A DNA stretch of 33,578 nt from Thioalkalivibrio sp. (GTDB taxonomy: Bacteria > Pseudomonadota > Gammaproteobacteria > Ectothiorhodospirales > Ectothiorhodospiraceae), in NCBI GenBank assembly GCA_007692435.1, contig RECA01000101.1, positions 1-33,578 of the forward strand, in the 5' to 3' direction. The notes below the pieces were generated by a model. That model did no database searches and had not been told where the DNA came from. It was given only the letters and a program-made list of their open reading frames with translations. The stretch's first letter is position 1, and every line of letters begins with the position of its first letter. Shown here piece by piece: positions 21,993 to 33,497 of this stretch. Position numbers and translations under genes: made by a program.

Positions 21993-22700
21993 TCACCAGA
22001 GCGGCCCCGGGCGATGCAGTACGCGGTGCAGCGGCAGGGGTTTGTCCTCGGCGCGGTGCGTGATCTGCGCGGCGAAGAGTTCCGCCGCGGCCAGCGCGTC
22101 GTTGAGCGCGTCGTGACCCTTGTAGCGCGGGAGGTTGTAGCGTTCGCGCAGCGCGTTCAGCCGCAATCCGCCGGACCGGACGGTCTCCTGGCGGCGCTCC
22201 ATGTCCTGCTGCGCCAGGCGCAGGGTATCCACGGTCGGGATCATGCAGGCAAACCCGTATTCACTCTGGCAGGCCCGGTCGAGGAAGCCGAGTTCGACCG
22301 TTGCATGGTGGGCCAGCATCACGCGGCCCTCGAGCACCTCGAGAAACCGCCCCAGCGCCTCGCTGAGGCTGCCGCCGCGCGCAGCCTGGTCATCGGTGAT
22401 CTGGTGGATCACGGCGCTGGCCTCGGGGATCTCCCGGGTCGGTCGCACCCAGCATTGGCCGGCCGTGTCGAGGCGGATGGTCAGACCGTCCATCGCCACC
22501 CAGCCGATGGACAGGATCTGGTCCTCCGCCGGGTTCAGGCCGGTCGTCTCGAGATCCACCGCGAGGAACGGGGTCTCGCGGCAGTCCTTCGACAGGTCCG
22601 GGATCTTGCCGGCAAGGTAGTCGCGCAGCGGCCCCGCAGGAACCTTTGCCGCGCGCCGCTGGCGGCGCCAGCAGAACAGCAGGGGCCCGGGGGGCTGCAT
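21993..22700 (-). CDS. 3'-5' exonuclease, DnaQ/DEDDh type
   Basis: The 235-residue product has a DEDDh exonuclease fold: Exo I with D49 and E51 (AVDLETTGLNP), Exo II in LAHHATVELGFLD, and Exo III with H196 and D201 (GHDALNDALAAAELF). At the usual Exo II aspartate the protein has E136, a conservative change that may still bind metal. It is not the replicative epsilon subunit, as it lacks the usual start and C-terminal region. The start overlaps the stop of the DUF294 gene by one base (TGATG). The pair is commonly seen beside DUF294 and VC_2705 symporter genes, though the role of an exonuclease there is unexplained. Confidence 0.88.
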   Translation of the reverse strand: MQPPGPLLFCWRRQRRAAKVPAGPLRDYLAGKIPDLSKDCRETPFLAVDLETTGLNPAEDQILSIGWVAMDGLTIRLDTAGQCWVRPTREIPEASAVIHQITDDQAARGGSLSEALGRFLEVLEGRVMLAHHATVELGFLDRACQSEYGFACMIPTVDTLRLAQQDMERRQETVRSGGLRLNALRERYNLPRYKGHDALNDALAAAELFAAQITHRAEDKPLPLHRVLHRPGPLW

Positions 22701-24562
22701 CAGAGCGTGCCCTTGGCGGCCAGTCGGGAGCGCAGGTTCTTCTGCATCGTTCCGATCACCGCGAAGGCATCCTTCAGGTGCGCGCGCTCCAGCGCCGACA
22801 GCGTCTTCGGCGGGATGTGGTTGTCGGGAGCCTCGCCCGCCTTCACCTGGTCCACCTGGTGGCGCGCACGCAGCGTGAACAGGGTCTCGTAGGCATCACA
22901 CAGGTTCTCGCCCGCGTCCCGCGTGATCACGCCCGCGTGGACGGCGCCGGCCAGTCGGTCGAGGGTGTGCATCCCCGTGAGCCCGCCCTGGAAGGCGTAC
23001 ACCTGGGCCAGGCTGGAGATCAGCAGCAGGCCCTGCTTCTTCACGTCCAGGGTGTCCGCCTGCTCGCCCGAGGGCACCAGCACCAGCTGGCGGAAGAAGC
23101 CGAGCGGCGGCGAGCGCCGCAGCGCGTTGCGGGCCATCTGGGCGAGGAAGGGGGGTTGTCCCCCGACCATGGTCAGCGCCTCGGACCGCAACGGGTCGAA
23201 CAGCGCGGCGTCGCCGTGAACGACACGAAGGTCGAAATAGTGGGCGGCCAGCATCGCCCGCTTCGTGTCCGGGGTGTAGGTGACCCGGCTGAACTCCTTG
23301 CGCCAGCCGCTGACGCTGCGCCGCCAGTGGGCGTTGGCTGGCGTGACATCGCCCGGGCAGTGCGGCAGTCCGCACGCATCCAGCCCGTCGGTGACGAATT
23401 CCGCCAGTCGGGCGAAGTAGGCGTCGACCTCCTCGTCCTTCGAGTCCGCGTGGATCAGGGCGTTGTCCTGGTCGGTGTGCACCGACTGCTCGCGGCGCCC
23501 CTGGGAGCCGCAGGCCAGCCAGGCATAGGGCACCGGCGGCGGTCCCAGCTGGGTTTCGGCCAGCTTCAGCAGGCGCCGGGTGAGGGCGTCGATCACCGCC
23601 GTGACCGCCTGGCCCAGGTGAAACGCGGTGGCGCCGGACTGGACCAGCTGGATCTGCAGTTCCGGCAGCGACCGGGCCACCTGGCTCAGCGCTTCAACGG
23701 ACTCGCAGCGACGGATGTCGCGAACCAGGTACACCGCATTGGTGCCCTGGTGACGGATCAGGTCGGTGGTCGAGATCAGTCCCACGGGCTGCTGGCCGGA
23801 CATCACCGGGAGGTGGTGGATGTCCTGGCGGGACATCATCAGCAGCGCCTCGAAGGCGGGTGTCTCGCGCGTGACCGTCTGCAGACGGCTGCTCATGATG
23901 TTGCCGACCGGCTCCTGCCGCGATCGGCCCGCGGCCAGGCAGCGCTTGCGCAGGTCGTGATCGGTGACGATGCCCGCCAGCGCGTCGCCGGACATCACGA
24001 TCAGCGCGGACACCTCCTGCTCCGTCATGCGCTCGGCGGCATCCCGGATCGTCGACTCGGGGGTGATGGTGATCGGCGGGCGCGTGACCAGTTCGCCCAC
24101 CGATACGGTGAGCACCCCTTGGCCGCGGTTGCCACCGGCCCCCAGCGCGGCGCGCGCCTGTTCCGCGGGCCGCCGGCTGGCCCGTTCGAAGCGTTCCGCG
24201 AACCCGGGATGCTGCTGGCGCAGTTCCCGTGCGTCTGGCCCCGGCAGCAGGTAGAACAGGGCATCCTCGACCACCCGGCCCGAGACCGGGTTCAGCGGGT
24301 CCGCGTCCTCGGGCACGGCGAAGATGTCGCCCTCCCCGAGCTTGTCCAGCAGTTCGTCCTGGGAATCGCGCAGGTCCACGGCGCCGGCGCGGACCAGCCA
24401 CAGGTCATCGGCCGCCGACTCCTCCGGCGGGAAGGGCGTGCCGCGGCGCAGGTACCGGACGTTCAGCAGTTTCGGCAAACGGTCCAGGACCGGCTCGGGA
24501 AGCACCGCGTAATCGGGGCTCGTGAGCAGGAAGTCGCGGATTTCCTGAAGTTCGGCGTCCAT
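22700..24562 (-). CDS. cNMP-binding/CBS/DUF294 nucleotidyltransferase-like protein (copy 1)
   Basis: The 620-residue product has an N-terminal cyclic-nucleotide-binding-like beta barrel (~10-140), a CBS pair (~155-285; SVGELVTRPPITITPESTIRDA, then SSRLQTVTRETPAFEALLMM), a nucleotidyltransferase domain with GSQGRREQ at ~352 and DQDN at ~364, and a helical DUF294 C-terminal domain. The nucleotidyltransferase signature relates it to GlnD-like uridylyltransferases, so it may nucleotidylate a target protein under adenylate control; this is inference. ATG 24562 was chosen because upstream codons have no family similarity; GTG 24580 is an alternative. It is coupled to the exonuclease downstream. An AT-rich stretch at about 24611-24640 may hold the promoter. 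Confidence 0.9.
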   Translation of the reverse strand: MDAELQEIRDFLLTSPDYAVLPEPVLDRLPKLLNVRYLRRGTPFPPEESAADDLWLVRAGAVDLRDSQDELLDKLGEGDIFAVPEDADPLNPVSGRVVEDALFYLLPGPDARELRQQHPGFAERFERASRRPAEQARAALGAGGNRGQGVLTVSVGELVTRPPITITPESTIRDAAERMTEQEVSALIVMSGDALAGIVTDHDLRKRCLAAGRSRQEPVGNIMSSRLQTVTRETPAFEALLMMSRQDIHHLPVMSGQQPVGLISTTDLIRHQGTNAVYLVRDIRRCESVEALSQVARSLPELQIQLVQSGATAFHLGQAVTAVIDALTRRLLKLAETQLGPPPVPYAWLACGSQGRREQSVHTDQDNALIHADSKDEEVDAYFARLAEFVTDGLDACGLPHCPGDVTPANAHWRRSVSGWRKEFSRVTYTPDTKRAMLAAHYFDLRVVHGDAALFDPLRSEALTMVGGQPPFLAQMARNALRRSPPLGFFRQLVLVPSGEQADTLDVKKQGLLLISSLAQVYAFQGGLTGMHTLDRLAGAVHAGVITRDAGENLCDAYETLFTLRARHQVDQVKAGEAPDNHIPPKTLSALERAHLKDAFAVIGTMQKNLRSRLAAKGTL

Positions 24563-24675
24563 CCTCCATGCATACCCCACATGGAGCCTCAAGGCAACGC
24601 TGCACTGCACCAAAAACGATTTGAAAAACAGTTCCTTAACGCGAGATCCCGCGCGGGCCAGCGGTGCCGTCCCGC

Positions 24676-24703
24676 AAAGAAAAGGCCCGCCTTGCGGCGG
24701 GCC
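24676..24703 (-). terminator. Intrinsic terminator of the symporter operon
   Basis: On the - strand GGCCCGCC-GCAA-GGCGGGCC forms a perfect 8-bp stem with a four-base loop, followed directly by TTTTCTTT. It lies about 150 bases past the symporter stop and ahead of the second DUF294 gene, separating the two transcription units. Confidence 0.85.
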
Positions 24704-24854
24704 CGAATGAGGCGGGGCGTGATCACCATCGCGATACGCGCCTCCTCGGGAGATCGGAGCGGTCACGGGTTGCCGCGATCGTTCGGTCTCCCCACCCCCC
24801 GCCCGCAAGCGCGGGAGAGGGGCTTGTGATCGCGCTCGGCGCGACCCTTTTACC

Positions 24855-26627
24855 TCAGCTGGTACCCACGCGCGGTACCCGCACGTCCTCGACCAGGTGC
24901 TGGATGTGCTCCGGCGGCTCCTTCGTGATCTTCATCACCAGGAATGCCGCGATGAAGTTCAGGATCGCGCCGATCACGCCGAAGCCGGTCGGGTTGATGC
25001 CCAGCAGCCAGTACTCGGCCGTATCCGGGAACATGTTGGTGCCCGGCAGGAAGAACCACCCCTTGAACAGGAAGATGTAGAGCAGGGTGCTCCCAAGGCC
25101 CGCCAGCATGCCGGCGATCGCCCCTTCCCGGTTCATCTTCTTCACGAAGATGCCCATCATCAGCACCGGGAACAGGCTGGCCGCCGCCAGACCGAAGGCC
25201 AGTGCGACCACCTCGGCCGCGAACCCGGGTGGATTCAGTCCTAGATATCCGGCCAGCAGGATGGCTGCCGCCATCGCGATCCGTCCCGAGAGCAGTTCGG
25301 ACCGCTCCGATATCCCGGGCGTCAGCACCCCCTTCATCAGGTCATGGGATATCGAGGACGATATCGCGAGCAACAGGCCGGCCGCGGTCGACAACGCGGC
25401 CGCGATACCTCCCGCCGCGACCAGCGCGATCACCCAGTTTGGCAGGCCGGCGATCTGCGGGTTGGCGAGCACCATGATGTCGCGGTCGATCGTGGTGAAC
25501 TCGTTGCCTTCCCAGCCCCACTCCTCGCGGGCCATCTCCGCGAATTCCTCATCGGCGTCGTTGTAGTACTGGAGCCGGCCGTCCTCGTTCTTGTCCTCCC
25601 ACTCGAGCAGGCCGGTGCGCTCCCAGCGCAGCATCCAGTCCGGACGTTCCTCGATCACCACGTTGCCCTGGGGATCGCCGACCGGGCCCGGCTGCACGGT
25701 GTTGATGAAGTTGTACATGGCCATCGCGCCCACGGCGGGTGCGGTGGTGTACAGGATGCCGATGAAGAGCAGTGCGAAGCCGGCGGACTTGCGGGCGTCA
25801 CGCACGCGCGGCACGGTGAAGAACCGGATGATCACGTGCGGAAGGCCCGCGGTGCCGATCATCAGCGCCAGTGTCAGCAGGAACATGTTCAGCAGGGACA
25901 TGCCGGTGACGGAGGTGTAGGCCGCGAAGCCCAGATCCATCAGCGTCTGGTCCAGTGCCTGCAGCAGCTGGGTGTCCTCGCCGATCAGCGTCGAGCCCAG
26001 GCCGATCTGCGGGAAGGCGTGACCGGTCAGCGTCAGCGAGATGAAGACCGCGGGCACGGTGTAGGCGAAGATCATGATCACGTACTGCGCGATCTGCGTG
26101 TAGGTGATGCCCTTCATCCCGCCGAACACCGCATAGATGAACACCACCACCATGCCCGAGAGCAGGCCGATGGCGAGGTCCATCTCGAGGATGTTCGAGA
26201 ACGCGATCCCGACCCCGCGCATCTGCCCGATCACGTAGGTGATCGAGATCACGAGCAGGCTGATCACCGCGACGATGCGCGCGGTCTTCGAGTAGAAGCG
26301 GTCACCGATGAACTCGGGCACGGTGAACTTCCCGAATTTGCGCAGATAGGGCGCAAGCAGCAGGGCCATCAGCACGTAGCCGCCGGTCCAGCCCATCAGA
26401 TAGGCGCCCCCGGTGAAGCCGAGGAAGGCGATCAGGCCCGCCATCGAGATGAAGCTGGCTGCGGACATCCAGTCGGCCGCGGTGGCCATGCCGTTCAGGA
26501 TCGGGTTGACGCCCTTGCCGGCGACGTAGAACTCGCTGGTGCTGCCGGCCCGTGCCCAGATCGCGATCCCGATGTAGAGCACGAAGGTCGCACCAACGAC
26601 CAGAAAACTCAGTGTTTGAAGGTCCAT
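24855..26627 (-). CDS. Sodium:solute symporter, large subunit (VC_2705 subfamily, acetate/carboxylate type)
   Basis: The 590-residue product is a multi-pass SSS-family transporter, starting MDLQTLSFLVVGATFVLYIG and continuing IWARAGSTSEFYVAGKGVNP, a common SSS N-terminal block. GMATAADWMSAASFISMAGL and GVGIAFSNILEMDLAIGLL are further family blocks. Between helices lies a long polar loop (~315-385) with an EF-hand-like DKNEDG at 345-350. It resembles ActP-type acetate permeases but belongs to the two-subunit VC_2705 group, whose substrate is not firmly known to me. The small DUF4212 subunit lies 7 bases upstream. Proximity to acs supports acetate or another short carboxylate. Confidence 0.9.
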   Translation of the reverse strand: MDLQTLSFLVVGATFVLYIGIAIWARAGSTSEFYVAGKGVNPILNGMATAADWMSAASFISMAGLIAFLGFTGGAYLMGWTGGYVLMALLLAPYLRKFGKFTVPEFIGDRFYSKTARIVAVISLLVISITYVIGQMRGVGIAFSNILEMDLAIGLLSGMVVVFIYAVFGGMKGITYTQIAQYVIMIFAYTVPAVFISLTLTGHAFPQIGLGSTLIGEDTQLLQALDQTLMDLGFAAYTSVTGMSLLNMFLLTLALMIGTAGLPHVIIRFFTVPRVRDARKSAGFALLFIGILYTTAPAVGAMAMYNFINTVQPGPVGDPQGNVVIEERPDWMLRWERTGLLEWEDKNEDGRLQYYNDADEEFAEMAREEWGWEGNEFTTIDRDIMVLANPQIAGLPNWVIALVAAGGIAAALSTAAGLLLAISSSISHDLMKGVLTPGISERSELLSGRIAMAAAILLAGYLGLNPPGFAAEVVALAFGLAAASLFPVLMMGIFVKKMNREGAIAGMLAGLGSTLLYIFLFKGWFFLPGTNMFPDTAEYWLLGINPTGFGVIGAILNFIAAFLVMKITKEPPEHIQHLVEDVRVPRVGTS

Positions 26628-26634
26628 GGCGTTG

Positions 26635-26895
26635 TTATTCCTCGTGTACGTCGAACTTGCGGTCCAGGGCGTTCATGCGCCAGGCGTAGAAGAAGATCAG
26701 CACGATGAAGGTGTACATCGAACCCTGCTGGGCGAACCAGAAGCCCAGGGGGTAACCTCCGATGCTGAAGGTGTTCAGCGGCTGGGCGAGCAGGATGCCG
26801 AGCCCGAAGGACACGACGAACCAGATCGTCAGAAGTACCGCGAGCAGCCGCAGATTGGCCTTCCAGTAGGCGGCTCTGCTTTCCTCTAGTGTCAT
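26635..26895 (-). CDS. Sodium:solute symporter small subunit (DUF4212)
   Basis: The 86-residue protein has two hydrophobic helices, LLAVLLTIWFVVSFGLGILL and MYTFIVLIFFYAW. Between them lies the DUF4212 signature FSIGGYPLGFWFAQQGS. ATG 26895 follows GGAGAC. The gene ends 7 bases before the large subunit. The two-gene arrangement is standard for VC_2705 symporters, where the small protein is presumed to assist assembly or function of the large one. Confidence 0.92.
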   Translation of the reverse strand: MTLEESRAAYWKANLRLLAVLLTIWFVVSFGLGILLAQPLNTFSIGGYPLGFWFAQQGSMYTFIVLIFFYAWRMNALDRKFDVHEE

Positions 26896-26943: not shown

Positions 26944-28818
26944 TCAGAGCTGGTACTGAACCGCAAGCTGACCCTGCAGCTTGCGGGCCTGCCGGAAGGC
27001 CTCCTTCAGCACCCTGGCCTCCAGGGTGCCGAGCTCCTCCGGTCGGATTTGGTTGCTGTCTTCACGGTTCGCGTCCAGCGCCTGCTGCTGGGTGCGCAGC
27101 CGCAGCATCTGCAGGTAGCGCAGCGCGGCGTGATAGTCGCGGACATCGTTCTCGCGCATCACCTCCGCCGAGACCGCCTGGTCCAGGCGGTCGTGGGTGC
27201 GTGTGGCGGGCAGTTCCGCGGCCAGCGCGATCACCCGGGCCCCGTCCACGAAGGGCGTCAGGCCCTGCAGCTTGATGTTGATGCCGTTGGCGCCGCTGCG
27301 GATCTCGCCGAACAGCCCCAGCGGCGGGCGGAAGCTCATCTGGTTGGCCGCCATCTGGCGCCGGAAGCGGCTGTTGAATGCGGTCCTGCGCAGCATCTCC
27401 GAGCGCAGGGCCTCCACCGGATCCCGGTCGCCGTCGATCGCGCGCAGGTCGAAGAAGATCGAGCTCTTCAGCAGGTGTTCCGGCGTCCCCTGGTCGATCC
27501 AGCGCCCGAAGCGCCGCTCCCACTCCGGGCCGCTGAGACAGCAATCCGGGTTGCCCGCCATGATGTCCCCGGGGCAGAGCTCGAAGCCGCACTCGTCCAG
27601 GGCGCGGTTCACCGCCTGCGCGTAGGGGAGGAGGCGTTCGCGCACCGTGTCTTCCTGTCCCTTGTCGCAGCGGAAGAGGATGCCGTTGTCCTGGTCCGTC
27701 TTCAGCGCCTGCTCTTCCCGGGCCTGCGACCCGAAGGCCAGCCAGGTGAACTCGATGCCGTCGATGTCGTGTTCCTGCCGGATCAGCGCCAGCACGCGCC
27801 GGGTGGCGTGGTCGTTGATGCGGGTGATCAGGCGGAGGATCTGGTCCGCCTCGGCCCCCTGGCTGATCACCGCGCCGATCAGCCGCGGCACCTCGCGCAG
27901 GTGGCTGGCGATCGTGGCGACGGTGTCCGCGCGCAGGATGCCCCGGACCAGCCGGTCCAGGGTCAGCGGATGCGAGGTGAGCAGGTCGCGCTCACCCAGC
28001 ACCCCGACCAGGCGCCCGTCGGAGACCACGCAGATGTGCTTCATCCCGTGTTCGGCCATGGTCTCGATGCCCTCGAAGCCCGGGGCCGAGTCCGGCAATG
28101 CAATGGGGTCCGGGGTCATCACCCGGCGCAGCGCGGTATCGAGAGGCAGCTCCTCCAGCGCGACGCGGCCGAGGAGATCGGTCATCGTGAAGATGCCGAC
28201 CGGCCGGCGGTCTTCGTCGACCGCGACGATGGAGCCGACCCGCGCGTCGCGCATTGCGGTCAGCGCCTCGCGCAGCGACGCGTCCGCCGCACAGGTGACC
28301 GGGTCGCGCGCGATGCGGGCCCCCAGCGGGGTGTTCAGCTGGCCGCTGCCGCTGCCGGCGCCGAGGTTGCGCGTCAGCAGTCCCTGGTGCACGCGCTCCA
28401 GCAGGCTCGCCAGGCGTCGGGAGCAGAAATCGCTGAAGATCTGCGACCGGGCCCGCAGGCGGTCGAAGTCCTCGACCGACAGTTCGAGACAGATGGTGTC
28501 CTCGAGCGCGCGATGCACCGTGTGCACCGGACGCCGACCCAGCAGTGCGCCGATCGGGAAGGACTCTCCGGGGACTAGTTCCCAGGCCTTGCCGGAGATC
28601 TGCTCGTCCTCGCTGGGGGTCTCCCCGCGGACGCGACCCTGGCGGATGATGAAGAAGCGCTGCGCGGGCCCGCTGTCCGGATCGGTGATGCGTTCACCGC
28701 TGGCGTAGAACCGCGTCTCCAGCCGGGGCAGCAGGAACTCCAGCGCGTCCGCTTCGATCTGGTCGAACGGAGCGTGCGTGTTCAGGAATTCCCGGGTCGT
28801 GTCGAGCGCGTCGGCCAT
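26944..28818 (-). CDS. cNMP-binding/CBS/DUF294 nucleotidyltransferase-like protein (copy 2)
   Basis: A second DUF294 protein with the same order as copy 1: N-terminal cNMP-binding-like domain (RFFIIRQGRVRGETPSEDEQ), CBS pair (~170-290), nucleotidyltransferase (FGSQAREEQ at ~362, DQDNG) and helical C terminus. It ends 48 bases before the symporter small subunit and starts close to the sigma54 promoter, so it is the first gene of the transporter operon. The frame is open to TTG 28860; ATG 28836 and 28818 are candidates. I chose 28818 (624 residues) because the predicted transcription start near 28845 leaves too short a leader for 28836. It likely senses nucleotide status and modifies the transporter or its partners; this is inferred. 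Confidence 0.88.
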   Translation of the reverse strand: MADALDTTREFLNTHAPFDQIEADALEFLLPRLETRFYASGERITDPDSGPAQRFFIIRQGRVRGETPSEDEQISGKAWELVPGESFPIGALLGRRPVHTVHRALEDTICLELSVEDFDRLRARSQIFSDFCSRRLASLLERVHQGLLTRNLGAGSGSGQLNTPLGARIARDPVTCAADASLREALTAMRDARVGSIVAVDEDRRPVGIFTMTDLLGRVALEELPLDTALRRVMTPDPIALPDSAPGFEGIETMAEHGMKHICVVSDGRLVGVLGERDLLTSHPLTLDRLVRGILRADTVATIASHLREVPRLIGAVISQGAEADQILRLITRINDHATRRVLALIRQEHDIDGIEFTWLAFGSQAREEQALKTDQDNGILFRCDKGQEDTVRERLLPYAQAVNRALDECGFELCPGDIMAGNPDCCLSGPEWERRFGRWIDQGTPEHLLKSSIFFDLRAIDGDRDPVEALRSEMLRRTAFNSRFRRQMAANQMSFRPPLGLFGEIRSGANGINIKLQGLTPFVDGARVIALAAELPATRTHDRLDQAVSAEVMRENDVRDYHAALRYLQMLRLRTQQQALDANREDSNQIRPEELGTLEARVLKEAFRQARKLQGQLAVQYQL

Positions 28819-28855
28819 TGGCTTCCGGAGGGTCATGGCATCGTGCCGACCGTCG

Positions 28856-28871
28856 AGCAAAAATCAAGCCA
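28856..28871 (-). promoter_or_regulatory. Sigma54 (-24/-12) promoter of the DUF294-symporter operon
   Basis: On the - strand TGGCTTGATTTTTGCT matches the consensus TGGCACG-N4-TTGCW at GG, C, G, TTGC and W, with exact GG-N10-GC spacing. The start is predicted near 28845. It lies beside a gene for a sigma54-dependent activator and downstream of clustered activator-like sites. Confidence 0.75.
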
Positions 28872-28934
28872 CGATCCGCGACCCCGCGCGTACAAGGACT
28901 TGCCGCCGGGCGGATACGATCGCGCCCGGCCGGC

Positions 28935-28973
28935 TGTTACATCAGGTAACAGCGGGTGTTACGCAAGGTAACG
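28935..28973. promoter_or_regulatory. Four-half-site upstream activating sequence for a sigma54 activator
   Basis: TGTTAC-N5-GTAACA-N5-TGTTAC-N5-GTAACG gives two 17-bp palindromes with half-sites every 11 bp. The array lies about 90-128 bases upstream of the predicted transcription start, the normal distance for an enhancer-binding protein. The half-sites resemble those I recall for CbrB (TGTTAC/GTAACA). Confidence 0.75.
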
Positions 28974-29007: not shown

Positions 29008-30315
29008 TCAGGTCCGCGGCAGGTTCTCGCGCTGGCGGCGCTCCCACAGGGTCTTGCGGCTGATGCCGAGCGCGCGCGCGAGCTCCGTCTCGTTCATGCG
29101 GTGCTGGTTCTCGATCACGAAGCGCCGGAAATACTCGGTCAGGGTCGCGGAGCGGGAGCGGGCCTCGGGCGCCGCGGGGACAAGCCCGAGGTTCTCCCAG
29201 TCGATGCTGTTGTCCTCGGACAGCACCACCGCGCGCTCCAGCGCGTTCTTCAGTTCGCGGACGTTCCCCGGCCAGTCGTAGGCATGCATGCGCCGGCGTG
29301 TCTCCTCGTCCAGCGTCAGCCCCGGGGCGCCGAAGCGCTGTTCCAGTTCCGCGAGGAAATGACTGACCAGGCCGTCCAGGTCGTCCAGGCGTTCCCGCAA
29401 TGGCGGAATGCGCAGTTCGAGCACCCGCAGACGGTAGTAGAGGTCCGCGCGGAATGCGCCGGTATCGATCATCGCCTCGAGGTCCCGGTGGGTCGCCGCC
29501 AGCAGCCGCACATCGACCCGTCTGGCCTGGTTGGCGCCCACTGGCCGGATCTCGCCCTCCTGCAGCACGCGCAGCAGCCGGGCCTGGGCCGCCGGGGCCA
29601 GTTCCCCGATCTCGTCGAGAAACAGCACGCCGCCGTCGGCCGATTCGATCAGGCCGGTGCGGGCCTTGACCGCACCGGTGTACGCCCCCTGGGCGTGTCC
29701 GAAGAGCTCCGCCTCGACCAGCCCCTCCGGGATCGACGCGCAGTTGACCGGAACGAAGGGCTGGCCGGCGCGTGGGCTCAGGGCGTGGATCGCGCAGGCC
29801 GCGACCTCCTTGCCGGTACCCGATTCGCCCCGGATCAGCACCGTCGAGTCGGCGGCGGCGACCTTGCGCATCTGCTGGCGCAGCGTGGCGATCGCCGGAG
29901 ACTCGCCGATGAGCCCCTGCTCCTGCGCGGCAGGCGTTCCGGGCGCGTGCGGACGCCGGTGGTGGGCACTGCTGCGCAGCGCGGCGCGCAGGGTCAGCAA
30001 CAGCGCGTCGTGATCGAAGGGCTTGGCGATGTAGTCGATCGCCCCGGACTTCATCGCCTCCACGGCCGAAGCGACCGAGGCATAGCTGGTCATGATCACG
30101 GTCGGCAGCCGCGGGTATTCGCCGATCAGGGCGGTGCCTTCGCCGTCGGGCAGGCGCAGGTCGGCCAGCAGCAGATCGAAGCCGGTGCGTTCCGCCTGTT
30201 CGCGCGCGCCGGAGAGGTCCTCGGCCAGGGCGACCTCGAAGCCCTGGTGCTCCAGGAACCGGCGCACGGCGCGCCGGATCGCCGCTTCGTCATCGACCAG
30301 AAGGATTCGTGTCAT
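29008..30315 (-). CDS. Sigma54-dependent response regulator, CbrB/NtrC type
   Basis: The 435-residue protein has a receiver domain with acidic pocket VDDE (8-10) and phospho-acceptor D52 (LLLADLRLPDGEG), a AAA+ domain with Walker A GESGTGKE (163-170) and Walker B LFLDEIGEL (231-239), and a C-terminal Fis-type helix-turn-helix (ELARALGISRKTLWERRQR). The sigma54-contact loop reads GAYTGA (210-215), a tolerated variant of GAFTGA. The start overlaps the kinase stop by four bases (ATGA), so the two are coupled. It most likely binds the half-site array at 28935-28973 and activates the adjacent operon. Confidence 0.94.
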   Translation of the reverse strand: MTRILLVDDEAAIRRAVRRFLEHQGFEVALAEDLSGAREQAERTGFDLLLADLRLPDGEGTALIGEYPRLPTVIMTSYASVASAVEAMKSGAIDYIAKPFDHDALLLTLRAALRSSAHHRRPHAPGTPAAQEQGLIGESPAIATLRQQMRKVAAADSTVLIRGESGTGKEVAACAIHALSPRAGQPFVPVNCASIPEGLVEAELFGHAQGAYTGAVKARTGLIESADGGVLFLDEIGELAPAAQARLLRVLQEGEIRPVGANQARRVDVRLLAATHRDLEAMIDTGAFRADLYYRLRVLELRIPPLRERLDDLDGLVSHFLAELEQRFGAPGLTLDEETRRRMHAYDWPGNVRELKNALERAVVLSEDNSIDWENLGLVPAAPEARSRSATLTEYFRRFVIENQHRMNETELARALGISRKTLWERRQRENLPRT

Positions 30316-33242
30316 GTCGGTCTGCCGGTCGGTAGGGTCAGGATGAACTGGGCACCGCCCTCGGTGGCGTTCATGGCGACTAGGCTACCACCATGATCCT
30401 GCACGATGCTGTAGGCGACCGGCAGTCCGAGTCCGGTGCCCTGGCCGGCGGGCTTGGTCGTGAAGAAGGGTTCGAACAGCCGGTCCAGCGTGGATGCGGC
30501 AATCCCCGGTCCCGCATCGTGGATGACGATGCGCACCCGACCGCCCGTCCGGCGTGCCTGGATGTGGATCGCCGCGCCGGGCGGCGAGGCCTGCTCCGCG
30601 TTGGTCAGCAGGTTGATGAAGACCTGCAGCAGCTTCGGCCGCGCACCCAGCAGCGTCTCTCCCTCCAGTCCGCTCAGCTCGTAGCGGATGTCCTTGCGCC
30701 CGGCGAGGCGGGTCAGGCGGATCGCCTCGTCCACCAGGTCGTCGAGCTCGACCGGCTCGAAGCGGTTGCGCGGCGGCGTGTCCGAGTGGGCGAAGGCGAC
30801 CAGCGACTGCACGATGGCATTGATGCGCCGGGTCTGGGCAACGATGTCATCGGCGATGTCGCGGATCTCTCCGGGGTCGTCCTCCAGCGGCAGGGTCTGT
30901 GCGAGCGAGGCGATGCCCGCCAGCGGGTTGCCGATCTCGTGCGCGACACCCGCCGCGAAGCGCCCGATGGACGCGAGCCGGTCGCCGTGGGCCACCTCGT
31001 TCTCCAGCTGCACCCGGGCGGTGACGTCCTCGATCAGGATCACGTAGCCCTCCCGGTGCCCCGCGGTGACCGCCACCGTGGACTTGTGCAGGTTCAGCCG
31101 CCGCGGGCCGTGGCGGGTCTCCAGGTTCAGCTTGTAGAGCTGGCGGTCCTGGCTGTCGAGGAAGGCCTGCAGCAGTCCGCCCCAGGGCCGCTCCAGCCGC
31201 TCGACGAGCTGGCCGACCGCGGCATCCGACCGGATACCCGTGAGTTCGGTCAGCGCCTGATTCCAGCCGGTGATCTCGCCGCCGGGGGTCAGGCTGCACA
31301 CACCCAGCGGCAGTTCGTGCAGGATCTTGCGGTGGAACCGACGCAGCGCATCGAGCTCGGCCGCGAGCCCGGTAAGGGGCAGGCGGGCATCCTCGAGCTG
31401 CTGTTCGATCCGGCGCAGGCTCTCGCCAAGGCTCGAACGGCCGGCGGCATCCAGGCGCAGGTGCTGATCCACGATCATCCGGGCCAGCACCGGGCCGAGC
31501 AGGCCGGAGAGGTTCCGCTCGATGCGCTCGCGCAGCCGCCGCAGATCCCGGCGCGACCGCGTGTGCCGCGGCAGGCCGAGATCATCCAGCGCCCGCTGCA
31601 CCTCGTGCCGGGCGGGCATGCTGCCGAGCGTGGCCGCCAGCTCCGCCTCCATCTCGGGCACGTCGCGCGCCAGCGGCAGGTCGATGGTGGTGTAGATCGG
31701 CTCGCGCGGGCAGCAGAGCCGGCCGGCCTCGACCTCCTGCTCGTTGGGCCGGGACAGCAGCGAGCCGAGGATGAACAGCACGGTATTGGCCCCCAGGCTG
31801 ACCGTGAGCGCAAAGGTCCAGGTGTCGAGGCCGCCACCGGCGACCAGCTCCTGCAGGCGCGGCGCCTGCGGCCAGATGCCGGCATTGCCCAGCAGGGGCG
31901 TGACCAGGCTGAAGAACCAGCCGGTGATGCCCGCGGCAAGTCCGAGCAGGAAGCCGATGCGGGTCGCCCGCGGCCACAGCAGCAGCCCGAAGAGGCCGGG
32001 CAGGAACTGGGCGACGGCGGCGAAGGAGATCAGGCCGAGCTGTGCCAGCCCCTCGATCACCTGCAGCAGGCCGTAGAAGCCGTAGCCCAGGGCGATGATC
32101 AGCACGATCCAGATGCGCCGCCCCCACAGCAGGTTGCGGTACAGGTTCGCCGGCATGCCCTGGCGCTCCCGCAGACTGGCCGGCGGAGAGAGGTAGTTCA
32201 TGCCCATGTTGGCCAGGGCGAGCGTGGTGACGATCATCATCGCGCTTGCCGCGGACAGCCCGCCGATGAAGATCAGCAGTGCCAGCGTTGGAGACTCGAG
32301 CCAGGCGGCCAGCCCCAGGGCGTAGTAGTTGGTCTGCTGGGTGAGGTCGGCCGCCTGGCCGGCCCAGTAGAGCAGCGGCATCGGCAGGTTCAGCAGCAGC
32401 AGGAACAGCGGAAAGGCCCACGCGGCGCGGTTCAGTGCCTCGGGGTTGATGTTCTCCGTGAACAGCATGTGAAACTGCCGCGGCAGCAGGAAGGCGGCGG
32501 CGAAGGCCAGCACCATCAGGCTGGTCCAGCCACCCTCGAGCACCGGCTGGTACAGCGCGGTGACCGCCTCGGGATGCGACTCCAGCCACGCGTCCAGTCC
32601 CCGCAGGCCACCGAAGACCGCGAACAGGGCGATGCCGGCGATGACCAGCAGCGCGACCAGCTTCACCAGCGACTCGAAGGCGATCGCCACCACCAGCCCG
32701 GAGTGTTTCTCCCGCGGCGAGATGTGCCGCGCCCCGAAGAGGATCGCGAACAGCGCGATGGTCGCGGTAAAACTGAGTGCCAGCAGGTGCGGCGGCGTGT
32801 CCGCGGTCAGGACCGCCGCCGACTCGGCGACCGCCTTGATCTGCAGCGCGATGTAGGGAAGGACGCCGGCCAGCATGAACAACGCGACCGTCGGCCCGGT
32901 GAGCCGGCTGCGATAGCGGAAGGCGAACAGGTCGGCCAGCGAGGTCAGCTGATGCTCGCGCGCCAGTGCCAGCATCGGGCGCAGCAGGAAGGGCGTGGCC
33001 GCGAAGGCCAGCGTGACGCCGAGGTAGATCGTCAGGTAGAGATAGCCGTGGGTCTCCAGGAAACCGAGGTTGCCGTAGAAGGTCCAGGAGGTGGCGTAGA
33101 CGCCCAGCGACAGCGTGTACACCCAGGCGTTGCCGGCCATGCCCCCGACCAGGCGGGAGCGCTCGGCGGCGAAGGCGATGCCGAACAGCAGTGCGAGGTA
33201 GACCACCCCGACCGCGTAAACGAGTCCGAGGCTAAGGGTCAC
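30312..33242 (-). CDS. Solute-symporter/sensor histidine kinase fusion, CbrA type
   Basis: The 976-residue protein starts at GTG 33242. Residues ~1-500 are a multi-helix sodium:solute symporter domain (SLGVYATSWTFYGNLGFL and later helices). A soluble STAC-like linker (~510-620), a PAS domain (~640-750), a HisKA domain with H768 (AAGVAHEIGNPLAG) and an HATPase domain (N box INLLTNAEQA, G boxes DAGPGI and GQGTGLGL) follow. This order is that of CbrA and related kinases, which link substrate transport to carbon-source signalling; CbrA takes up histidine in Pseudomonas, but the ligand here is unknown. It is coupled to a small membrane-protein gene upstream by a GTGA overlap and to the response regulator downstream. 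Confidence 0.93.
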   Translation of the reverse strand: MTLSLGLVYAVGVVYLALLFGIAFAAERSRLVGGMAGNAWVYTLSLGVYATSWTFYGNLGFLETHGYLYLTIYLGVTLAFAATPFLLRPMLALAREHQLTSLADLFAFRYRSRLTGPTVALFMLAGVLPYIALQIKAVAESAAVLTADTPPHLLALSFTATIALFAILFGARHISPREKHSGLVVAIAFESLVKLVALLVIAGIALFAVFGGLRGLDAWLESHPEAVTALYQPVLEGGWTSLMVLAFAAAFLLPRQFHMLFTENINPEALNRAAWAFPLFLLLLNLPMPLLYWAGQAADLTQQTNYYALGLAAWLESPTLALLIFIGGLSAASAMMIVTTLALANMGMNYLSPPASLRERQGMPANLYRNLLWGRRIWIVLIIALGYGFYGLLQVIEGLAQLGLISFAAVAQFLPGLFGLLLWPRATRIGFLLGLAAGITGWFFSLVTPLLGNAGIWPQAPRLQELVAGGGLDTWTFALTVSLGANTVLFILGSLLSRPNEQEVEAGRLCCPREPIYTTIDLPLARDVPEMEAELAATLGSMPARHEVQRALDDLGLPRHTRSRRDLRRLRERIERNLSGLLGPVLARMIVDQHLRLDAAGRSSLGESLRRIEQQLEDARLPLTGLAAELDALRRFHRKILHELPLGVCSLTPGGEITGWNQALTELTGIRSDAAVGQLVERLERPWGGLLQAFLDSQDRQLYKLNLETRHGPRRLNLHKSTVAVTAGHREGYVILIEDVTARVQLENEVAHGDRLASIGRFAAGVAHEIGNPLAGIASLAQTLPLEDDPGEIRDIADDIVAQTRRINAIVQSLVAFAHSDTPPRNRFEPVELDDLVDEAIRLTRLAGRKDIRYELSGLEGETLLGARPKLLQVFINLLTNAEQASPPGAAIHIQARRTGGRVRIVIHDAGPGIAASTLDRLFEPFFTTKPAGQGTGLGLPVAYSIVQDHGGSLVAMNATEGGAQFILTLPTGRPT

Positions 33243-33402: not shown

Positions 33403-33497
33403 GGGCGCCCCCGCGCGTCAAGGATCGATCTTCTGTGATGTTTCATCGCTCGTAACCTGGCCAACGATCAAGGCGCTCCGCGCACAGCCCCTGGACT

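Follow-up and report, generated by a model that had tools for sequence, protein, structure and literature searches.

Which regulator switches on the transporter operon that begins with a DUF294 gene in Thioalkalivibrio sp., and from what promoter? We examined this question in a 33,578-nt stretch of contig RECA01000101.1, hereafter the window, in which the original prediction had recognized a sigma54 promoter, an upstream array of half-sites, and, next to both, the gene of an NtrC-type activator proposed to drive the DUF294-symporter operon. Promoter architecture, regulator orthology, exclusivity of the sites, and linkage, all assessed by sequence comparison, support this proposal, and we assign a probability of roughly 0.87 to regulator-driven sigma54 control of the operon.

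Table 1. Features of the operon, its control region and the adjoining two-component system (window coordinates)
Feature	Position	Strand	Remarks
DnaQ-like 3'-5' exonuclease, probable last operon gene	21993-22700	-	
Second CBS/DUF294 protein of the operon	22700-24808	-	
VC_2705-family Na+/solute symporter	24855-26627	-	TIGR03648, 827 bits (cut-off 321)
DUF4212/TIGR03647 symporter small subunit	26635-26895	-	
First target gene, cNMP-binding/CBS/DUF294/DUF294_C protein	26944-28818	-	Conserved start MADALDTT at 28818; alternative ATG at 28836
Predicted transcription start	28845	-	~12 nt after the -12 GC, from promoter geometry
Sigma54 -24/-12 promoter, TGGCTTGATTTTTGC	28857-28871	-	GG-N10-GC; 9/11 specified positions of TGGCACG-N4-TTGC
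Spacer element, CAAGTCCTTGTAC	28890-28902	-	IHF-like (YAAN4TTGATW), CAA-N4-YTG; fixed offset of -31 from the -24 box
Putative proximal upstream activating site, TGTTACATCAGGTAACA	28935-28951		Perfect dyad TGTTAC-N5-GTAACA
Putative distal upstream activating site, TGTTACGCAAGGTAACG	28957-28973		Dyad TGTTAC-N5-GTAACG; conserved in relatives
CbrB-type NtrC-family response regulator (REC-AAA+-HTH), probable activator	29008-30315	-	
CbrA-type SLC5-STAC-PAS-HisKA-HATPase sensor kinase	30312-33242	-	
cbrX-like membrane-peptide ORF, 56 aa	33232-33402	-	11-nt overlap with the kinase start
Lone GTTAC half-site before cbrX-kinase	33452-33456	-	Intact dyad there in relatives

The GG-N10-GC promoter with TTGC at -12 was confirmed on the minus strand, and the four TGTTAC/GTAAC half-sites announced upstream of it proved to be two dyads, each with an N5 loop, separated from the -24 box by 64 bp. 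Along the minus strand, 5' to 3', the stop codon of the regulator gene (near 29008) is followed by the dyad CGTTACCTTGCGTAACA, 5 bp, the dyad TGTTACCTGATGTAACA, ~64 bp, the promoter, and the DUF294 gene. Hexamers start every 11 bp in the window, with a dyad-to-dyad spacing of 22 bp. Allowing for up to one mismatch, the window contains four matches to the dyad pattern, two sites each read in both directions, where 0.01 would be expected; shuffled sequences never gave four. The genome also encodes its own RpoN (PF04552, 223 bits). Absent from the original prediction were the spacer element, the cbrX-like ORF, and the lineage-specific character of the 22-bp spacing.

The array had been expected to recur upstream of DUF294/DUF4212 operons in relatives, and it does. 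Our family sample comprised 47 genomes, in 44 of which the DUF294 gene was called at E<=1e-60; each of these 44 has a GG-N10-GC promoter preceded by one GTTAC-N5-GTAAC dyad or by two. The dyad stands 52-65 bp from the -24 box in 43 genomes; in the outlier (G032) the distance is 73 bp, the promoter is weaker, and a single dyad is intact. Alignment of 43 family promoters on the -24 box revealed invariant GGC and TGC and, at offset -31, a second conserved block, CAA-N4-YTG-WTT. This spacer scored on average 7.4 of 9 against the IHF consensus in reverse (YAAN4TTGATW), with a shuffle maximum of 4.3, and its YAA-N4-YTG core is kept in 32/43 genomes and missing in 11/43. The 11-bp phasing holds in the window but is not conserved, palindrome spacing ranging from 19 to 24 bp across relatives and from 19 to 23 bp within the family (22 or 23 bp in Thioalkalivibrio, 20 in family group g3, 19 in g5 and g2), and we therefore rejected exact phasing as a special feature of this promoter. 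Moreover, 13 genus members hold a single intact dyad, several of them with a degenerate one ~22 bp upstream. As to the proposed cooperative binding of two dimers on one helix face, two dimers remain plausible, whereas the notion of exactly one face is weak because conservation extends only to the N5 dyad and to a spacing of about two helical turns.

The sites are also nearly exclusive to this operon. The whole 2.7 Mb genome contains three dyads with at most one mismatch, two of which are at this promoter; the third (C50, L002) was treated as chance, given the unrelated genes nearby and its background-level occurrence. Genome-wide in 30 Thioalkalivibrio genomes, 43 of 48 dyads belong to this one promoter, and the five non-operon dyads fall below the 20 matches that a reversed control pattern gives. 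These counts, together with the lack of any CrcZ (RF01675) match in the own genome, speak against a regulator that uses the dyads but also governs a broader regulon through many weaker half-site targets. Such a regulon would resemble that of Pseudomonas CbrB, which acts on imperfect, variably spaced subsites at ~61 genes (PMC6296734), and single half-sites are not reliably countable; we regard this alternative as unlikely, though worth keeping in view.

We then turn to the identity of the regulator. The adjoining gene does encode an activator of the NtrC type, as predicted, which is orthologous to CbrB and is paired with a CbrA-like kinase. Its sigma54-contact motif (residues ~211-216) reads GAYTGA in this genus, a rarer form than the GAFTGA found in the other relatives aligned. 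Residues 2-595 of the kinase match PDB 10ED (P. putida CbrXA SLC5-STAC) with E=3.9e-139, and PAS, HisKA, and HATPase domains were also found. The 11-nt overlap of cbrX and kinase is likewise usual in class relatives, the published overlap in P. putida being 17 nt. In the class genome G207, CrcZ (RF01675, 307 bits) lies directly 3' of the regulator gene, which identifies this regulator as CbrB by synteny, and in a 41-row tree it nests inside the regulator clade, apart from NtrC-type paralogues, the outer branch support being 93/80 owing to one long-branch paralogue. TGTTAC/GTAACA, which the original prediction named as the CbrB half-site, is likewise the published CbrB subsite, with IHF and sigma54 involved (PMC6296734). 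Reviews describe CbrAB as unique to Pseudomonadaceae, that is, Pseudomonas and its closest kin, and in the openly accessible papers searched we found no account of the control of this operon or of CbrAB outside that family. On the above comparisons, orthologous CbrAB-type systems, cbrX included, are placed well outside Pseudomonadaceae.

Sites and regulator also co-occur on a wider scale. A profile search found the regulator in 38 of 369 gammaproteobacterial genomes, and the seven genomes with the exact tandem array, always before a DUF294 gene, are all among these 38 (hypergeometric p = 7e-8). Scanning a genome collection for the tandem array returned at least 120 stretches, mostly repeats of Prevotella, Treponema, Mycobacterium, and Planctomycetota. 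Among the matches listed, the array stands beside the system in Thioalkalivibrio, three species of Ectothiorhodospira (mobilis, magna, lacustris), Thiohalomonas denitrificans, and a Rhodocyclaceae MAG. Those listed for Prevotella, Treponema, Mycobacterium, and Planctomycetota have no system genes near the array and look like unrelated repeats; the exception is L164, a Planctomycetota stretch that contains a weaker match to the regulator. One Prevotellaceae genome (RUG12386; L101 and other loci) contains very many scattered tandem GTTAC-N5-GTAAC arrays with a 22-bp period, unrelated to the system.

Tandem palindromes can serve as operators of many regulators, and the same pattern turns up in repeats of Prevotella, Treponema, and further taxa that have nothing to do with this system. 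The dyads could accordingly be occupied by a different protein, such as a repressor, while the linked regulator acts elsewhere. This is improbable in our judgement, since the half-site is identical to the published CbrB subsite (PMC6296734), the linked regulator is a CbrB orthologue, arrays in the class sample are confined to genomes with the regulator, and the sites stand at enhancer distance from sigma54 promoters. Linkage itself is informative where it is broken. In 15 genus members (e.g. L034, L036, L037) the regulator gene is on another contig or ~58 kb to >1 Mb away, and the dyad is still in front of DUF294, which indicates that the sites belong to the promoter of the operon and not to the 3' end of the regulator gene. 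The inverted repeats, some 35-75 bp after the regulator stop codon, might finally be read as a terminator or hairpin that ends the kinase-regulator transcript and precedes the operon incidentally, but we rejected this RNA element as highly improbable because no T-run or terminator exists at the repeats, the array precedes DUF294 without the regulator upstream in those 15 genomes and in G125, and the letters GTTAC/GTAAC are conserved across relatives beyond what pairing requires, with a variable N5 loop.

Under the preferred reading, that is, sigma54-dependent activation by the CbrB-type regulator, the SLC5/STAC kinase would sense a small-molecule or carbon-status signal and phosphorylate its partner, which would then, probably as a pair of dimers or a larger oligomer, bind both tandem dyads ~90-130 bp upstream of the predicted start. 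Between dyads and promoter, the DNA would be bent at the IHF-like site, enabling the AAA+ domain to open RNA polymerase-sigma54 at the promoter. The predicted transcript would span DUF294-DUF4212-symporter-DUF294-exonuclease, and as the likely outcome, acetate or a related monocarboxylate would be taken up on demand. Counting against this reading are the G032 promoter, the absence of the spacer core in 11/43 genomes, the GAYTGA form of the contact motif, and the non-palindromic, wider-spaced subsites reported for P. putida CbrB. The locus appears to be a complete on-switch, family-wide in sulfur bacteria, with which a nutrient-sensing protein pair would activate an operon for nutrient uptake.

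The slot directly 3' of the regulator points to acetate or a related monocarboxylate as the likely substrate, being occupied in relatives by acs or by other symporters. DUF294 occupies this slot in six genomes (G355, G033, G035, G172, G380, and G010), acs or an acs-like start in G247, G107, G133, and G256 (NCBIfam acs together with a dyad in G247 only), a TIGR03648 symporter in the Rhodocyclaceae MAG and probably also in G050, another symporter type in G369, G139, and G259 (with a dyad in G369), a solute-binding protein in G200, and crcZ in G207. The best sequence evidence on the substrate comes from G247 (L317), in which dyads at 1580 and 3793 stand one before acs and the other before DUF4212/symporter genes, with the same two-component system adjoining.

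The tree places the regulator of G408 as sister to CbrB, and in this genome the slot is a ~680-bp stretch without any ORF of 110 aa. Some 230-715 bp 3' of the regulator gene (L246), it combines a sigma54 box and a terminator-like hairpin with nine AANAAYAA motifs, where 0.2 would be expected, and it is followed, as in G207, by a pcnB-like gene (labelled by eye). An Rfam search returned no RF01675 match there, and the slot likely encodes a divergent, Rfam-invisible crcZ-type RNA. We would place at slightly under even odds the broader scenario in which the slot 3' of cbrB is the ancient output of CbrAB-type systems. Its sigma54 promoter, read from NtrC-like dyads, would in most lineages serve genes for acetate/monocarboxylate uptake and activation (DUF294-symporter, other symporters, acs), whereas on the branch to Pseudomonas crcZ came to fill the slot and the half-sites moved apart, the sister lineage G408 having a crcZ-like RNA there. 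If so, a local uptake switch became a global catabolite-repression hub on that branch.

The dyad also marks a second location. About 20 class and family relatives (L283-L301, L089, L090) carry a single GTTAC-N5-GTAAC dyad 14-70 bp, mostly ~20 bp, upstream of cbrX in the cbrX-kinase operon; a TAGGCT resembling a -10 box often comes next, and no convincing sigma54 box was found at these dyads. Their position in the likely -35 region suggests sigma54-independent autoregulation, be it repression or sigma70-type control by the regulator. The lone half-site in the window is probably a decayed version of this autoregulatory site, the intact dyad having been lost in Thioalkalivibrio. No dyad precedes cbrX-kinase in G207, which fits the reported CbrB-independent expression of CbrA in P. 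putida.

Descriptions of Pseudomonas CbrAB present it as regulating globally, from sites that are, oddly, not palindromic. Sulfur-oxidising and phototrophic bacteria now provide a CbrAB-type system with clean dyads and a direct regulon of apparently one transporter operon, and hence a simple model in which to search for the signal of SLC5/STAC kinases. This system further suggests that the unusual operators of Pseudomonas arose secondarily, and it renders the origin of crcZ-based catabolite repression testable.

In its architecture the promoter is of the ordinary enhancer-binding-protein type, and its unusual traits are the taxonomic spread and the target. NtrC-type sigma54 enhancers, such as that of glnA, are likewise tandem 17-bp dyads with N5 between half-sites, ~100 bp upstream, but their half-site is of the TGCACC type, whereas it is TGTTAC here and the sensor kinase is of a carbon/transporter type. 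CrbS/CrbR and RpuS/RpuR (PMC5715377, PMC9100948) share the SLC5/STAC kinase and control acetate or pyruvate use, symporter genes included, through a LuxR-type regulator instead of a sigma54 activator. The closest counterpart is CbrA/CbrB with the crcZ promoter (PMC6296734, PMC8871633, PMC13022988), which has in common with the window the SLC5-STAC kinase, the overlapping cbrX ORF, the NtrC-type regulator, TGTTAC/GTAACA half-sites, an IHF-like spacer, a sigma54 promoter, and the position of this output promoter immediately 3' of the regulator gene. In the Pseudomonas-type genome G207, the crcZ promoter combines the sigma54 box TGGCACGACAACTGC with the spacer CAAGCCACTGATT at -32 and three half-sites, at -123, -103, and -80; it follows the same plan as the window but fits the wider, non-dyad geometry of the published CbrB consensus, TGTTAC-N12-14-GTAACA-N15-19-GTAACA, into which the tandem N5 dyads of the window do not fit. 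As P. putida CbrB has been reported on non-palindromic subsites with wider spacing (PMC6296734), the mode of binding here must differ somewhat. The target differs as well, being a DUF294/DUF4212/symporter operon in place of the sRNA crcZ. The window thus encodes a CbrAB-type system of another family, outside Pseudomonadaceae, that would read compact, NtrC-like tandem dyads at what seems to be a single direct target.
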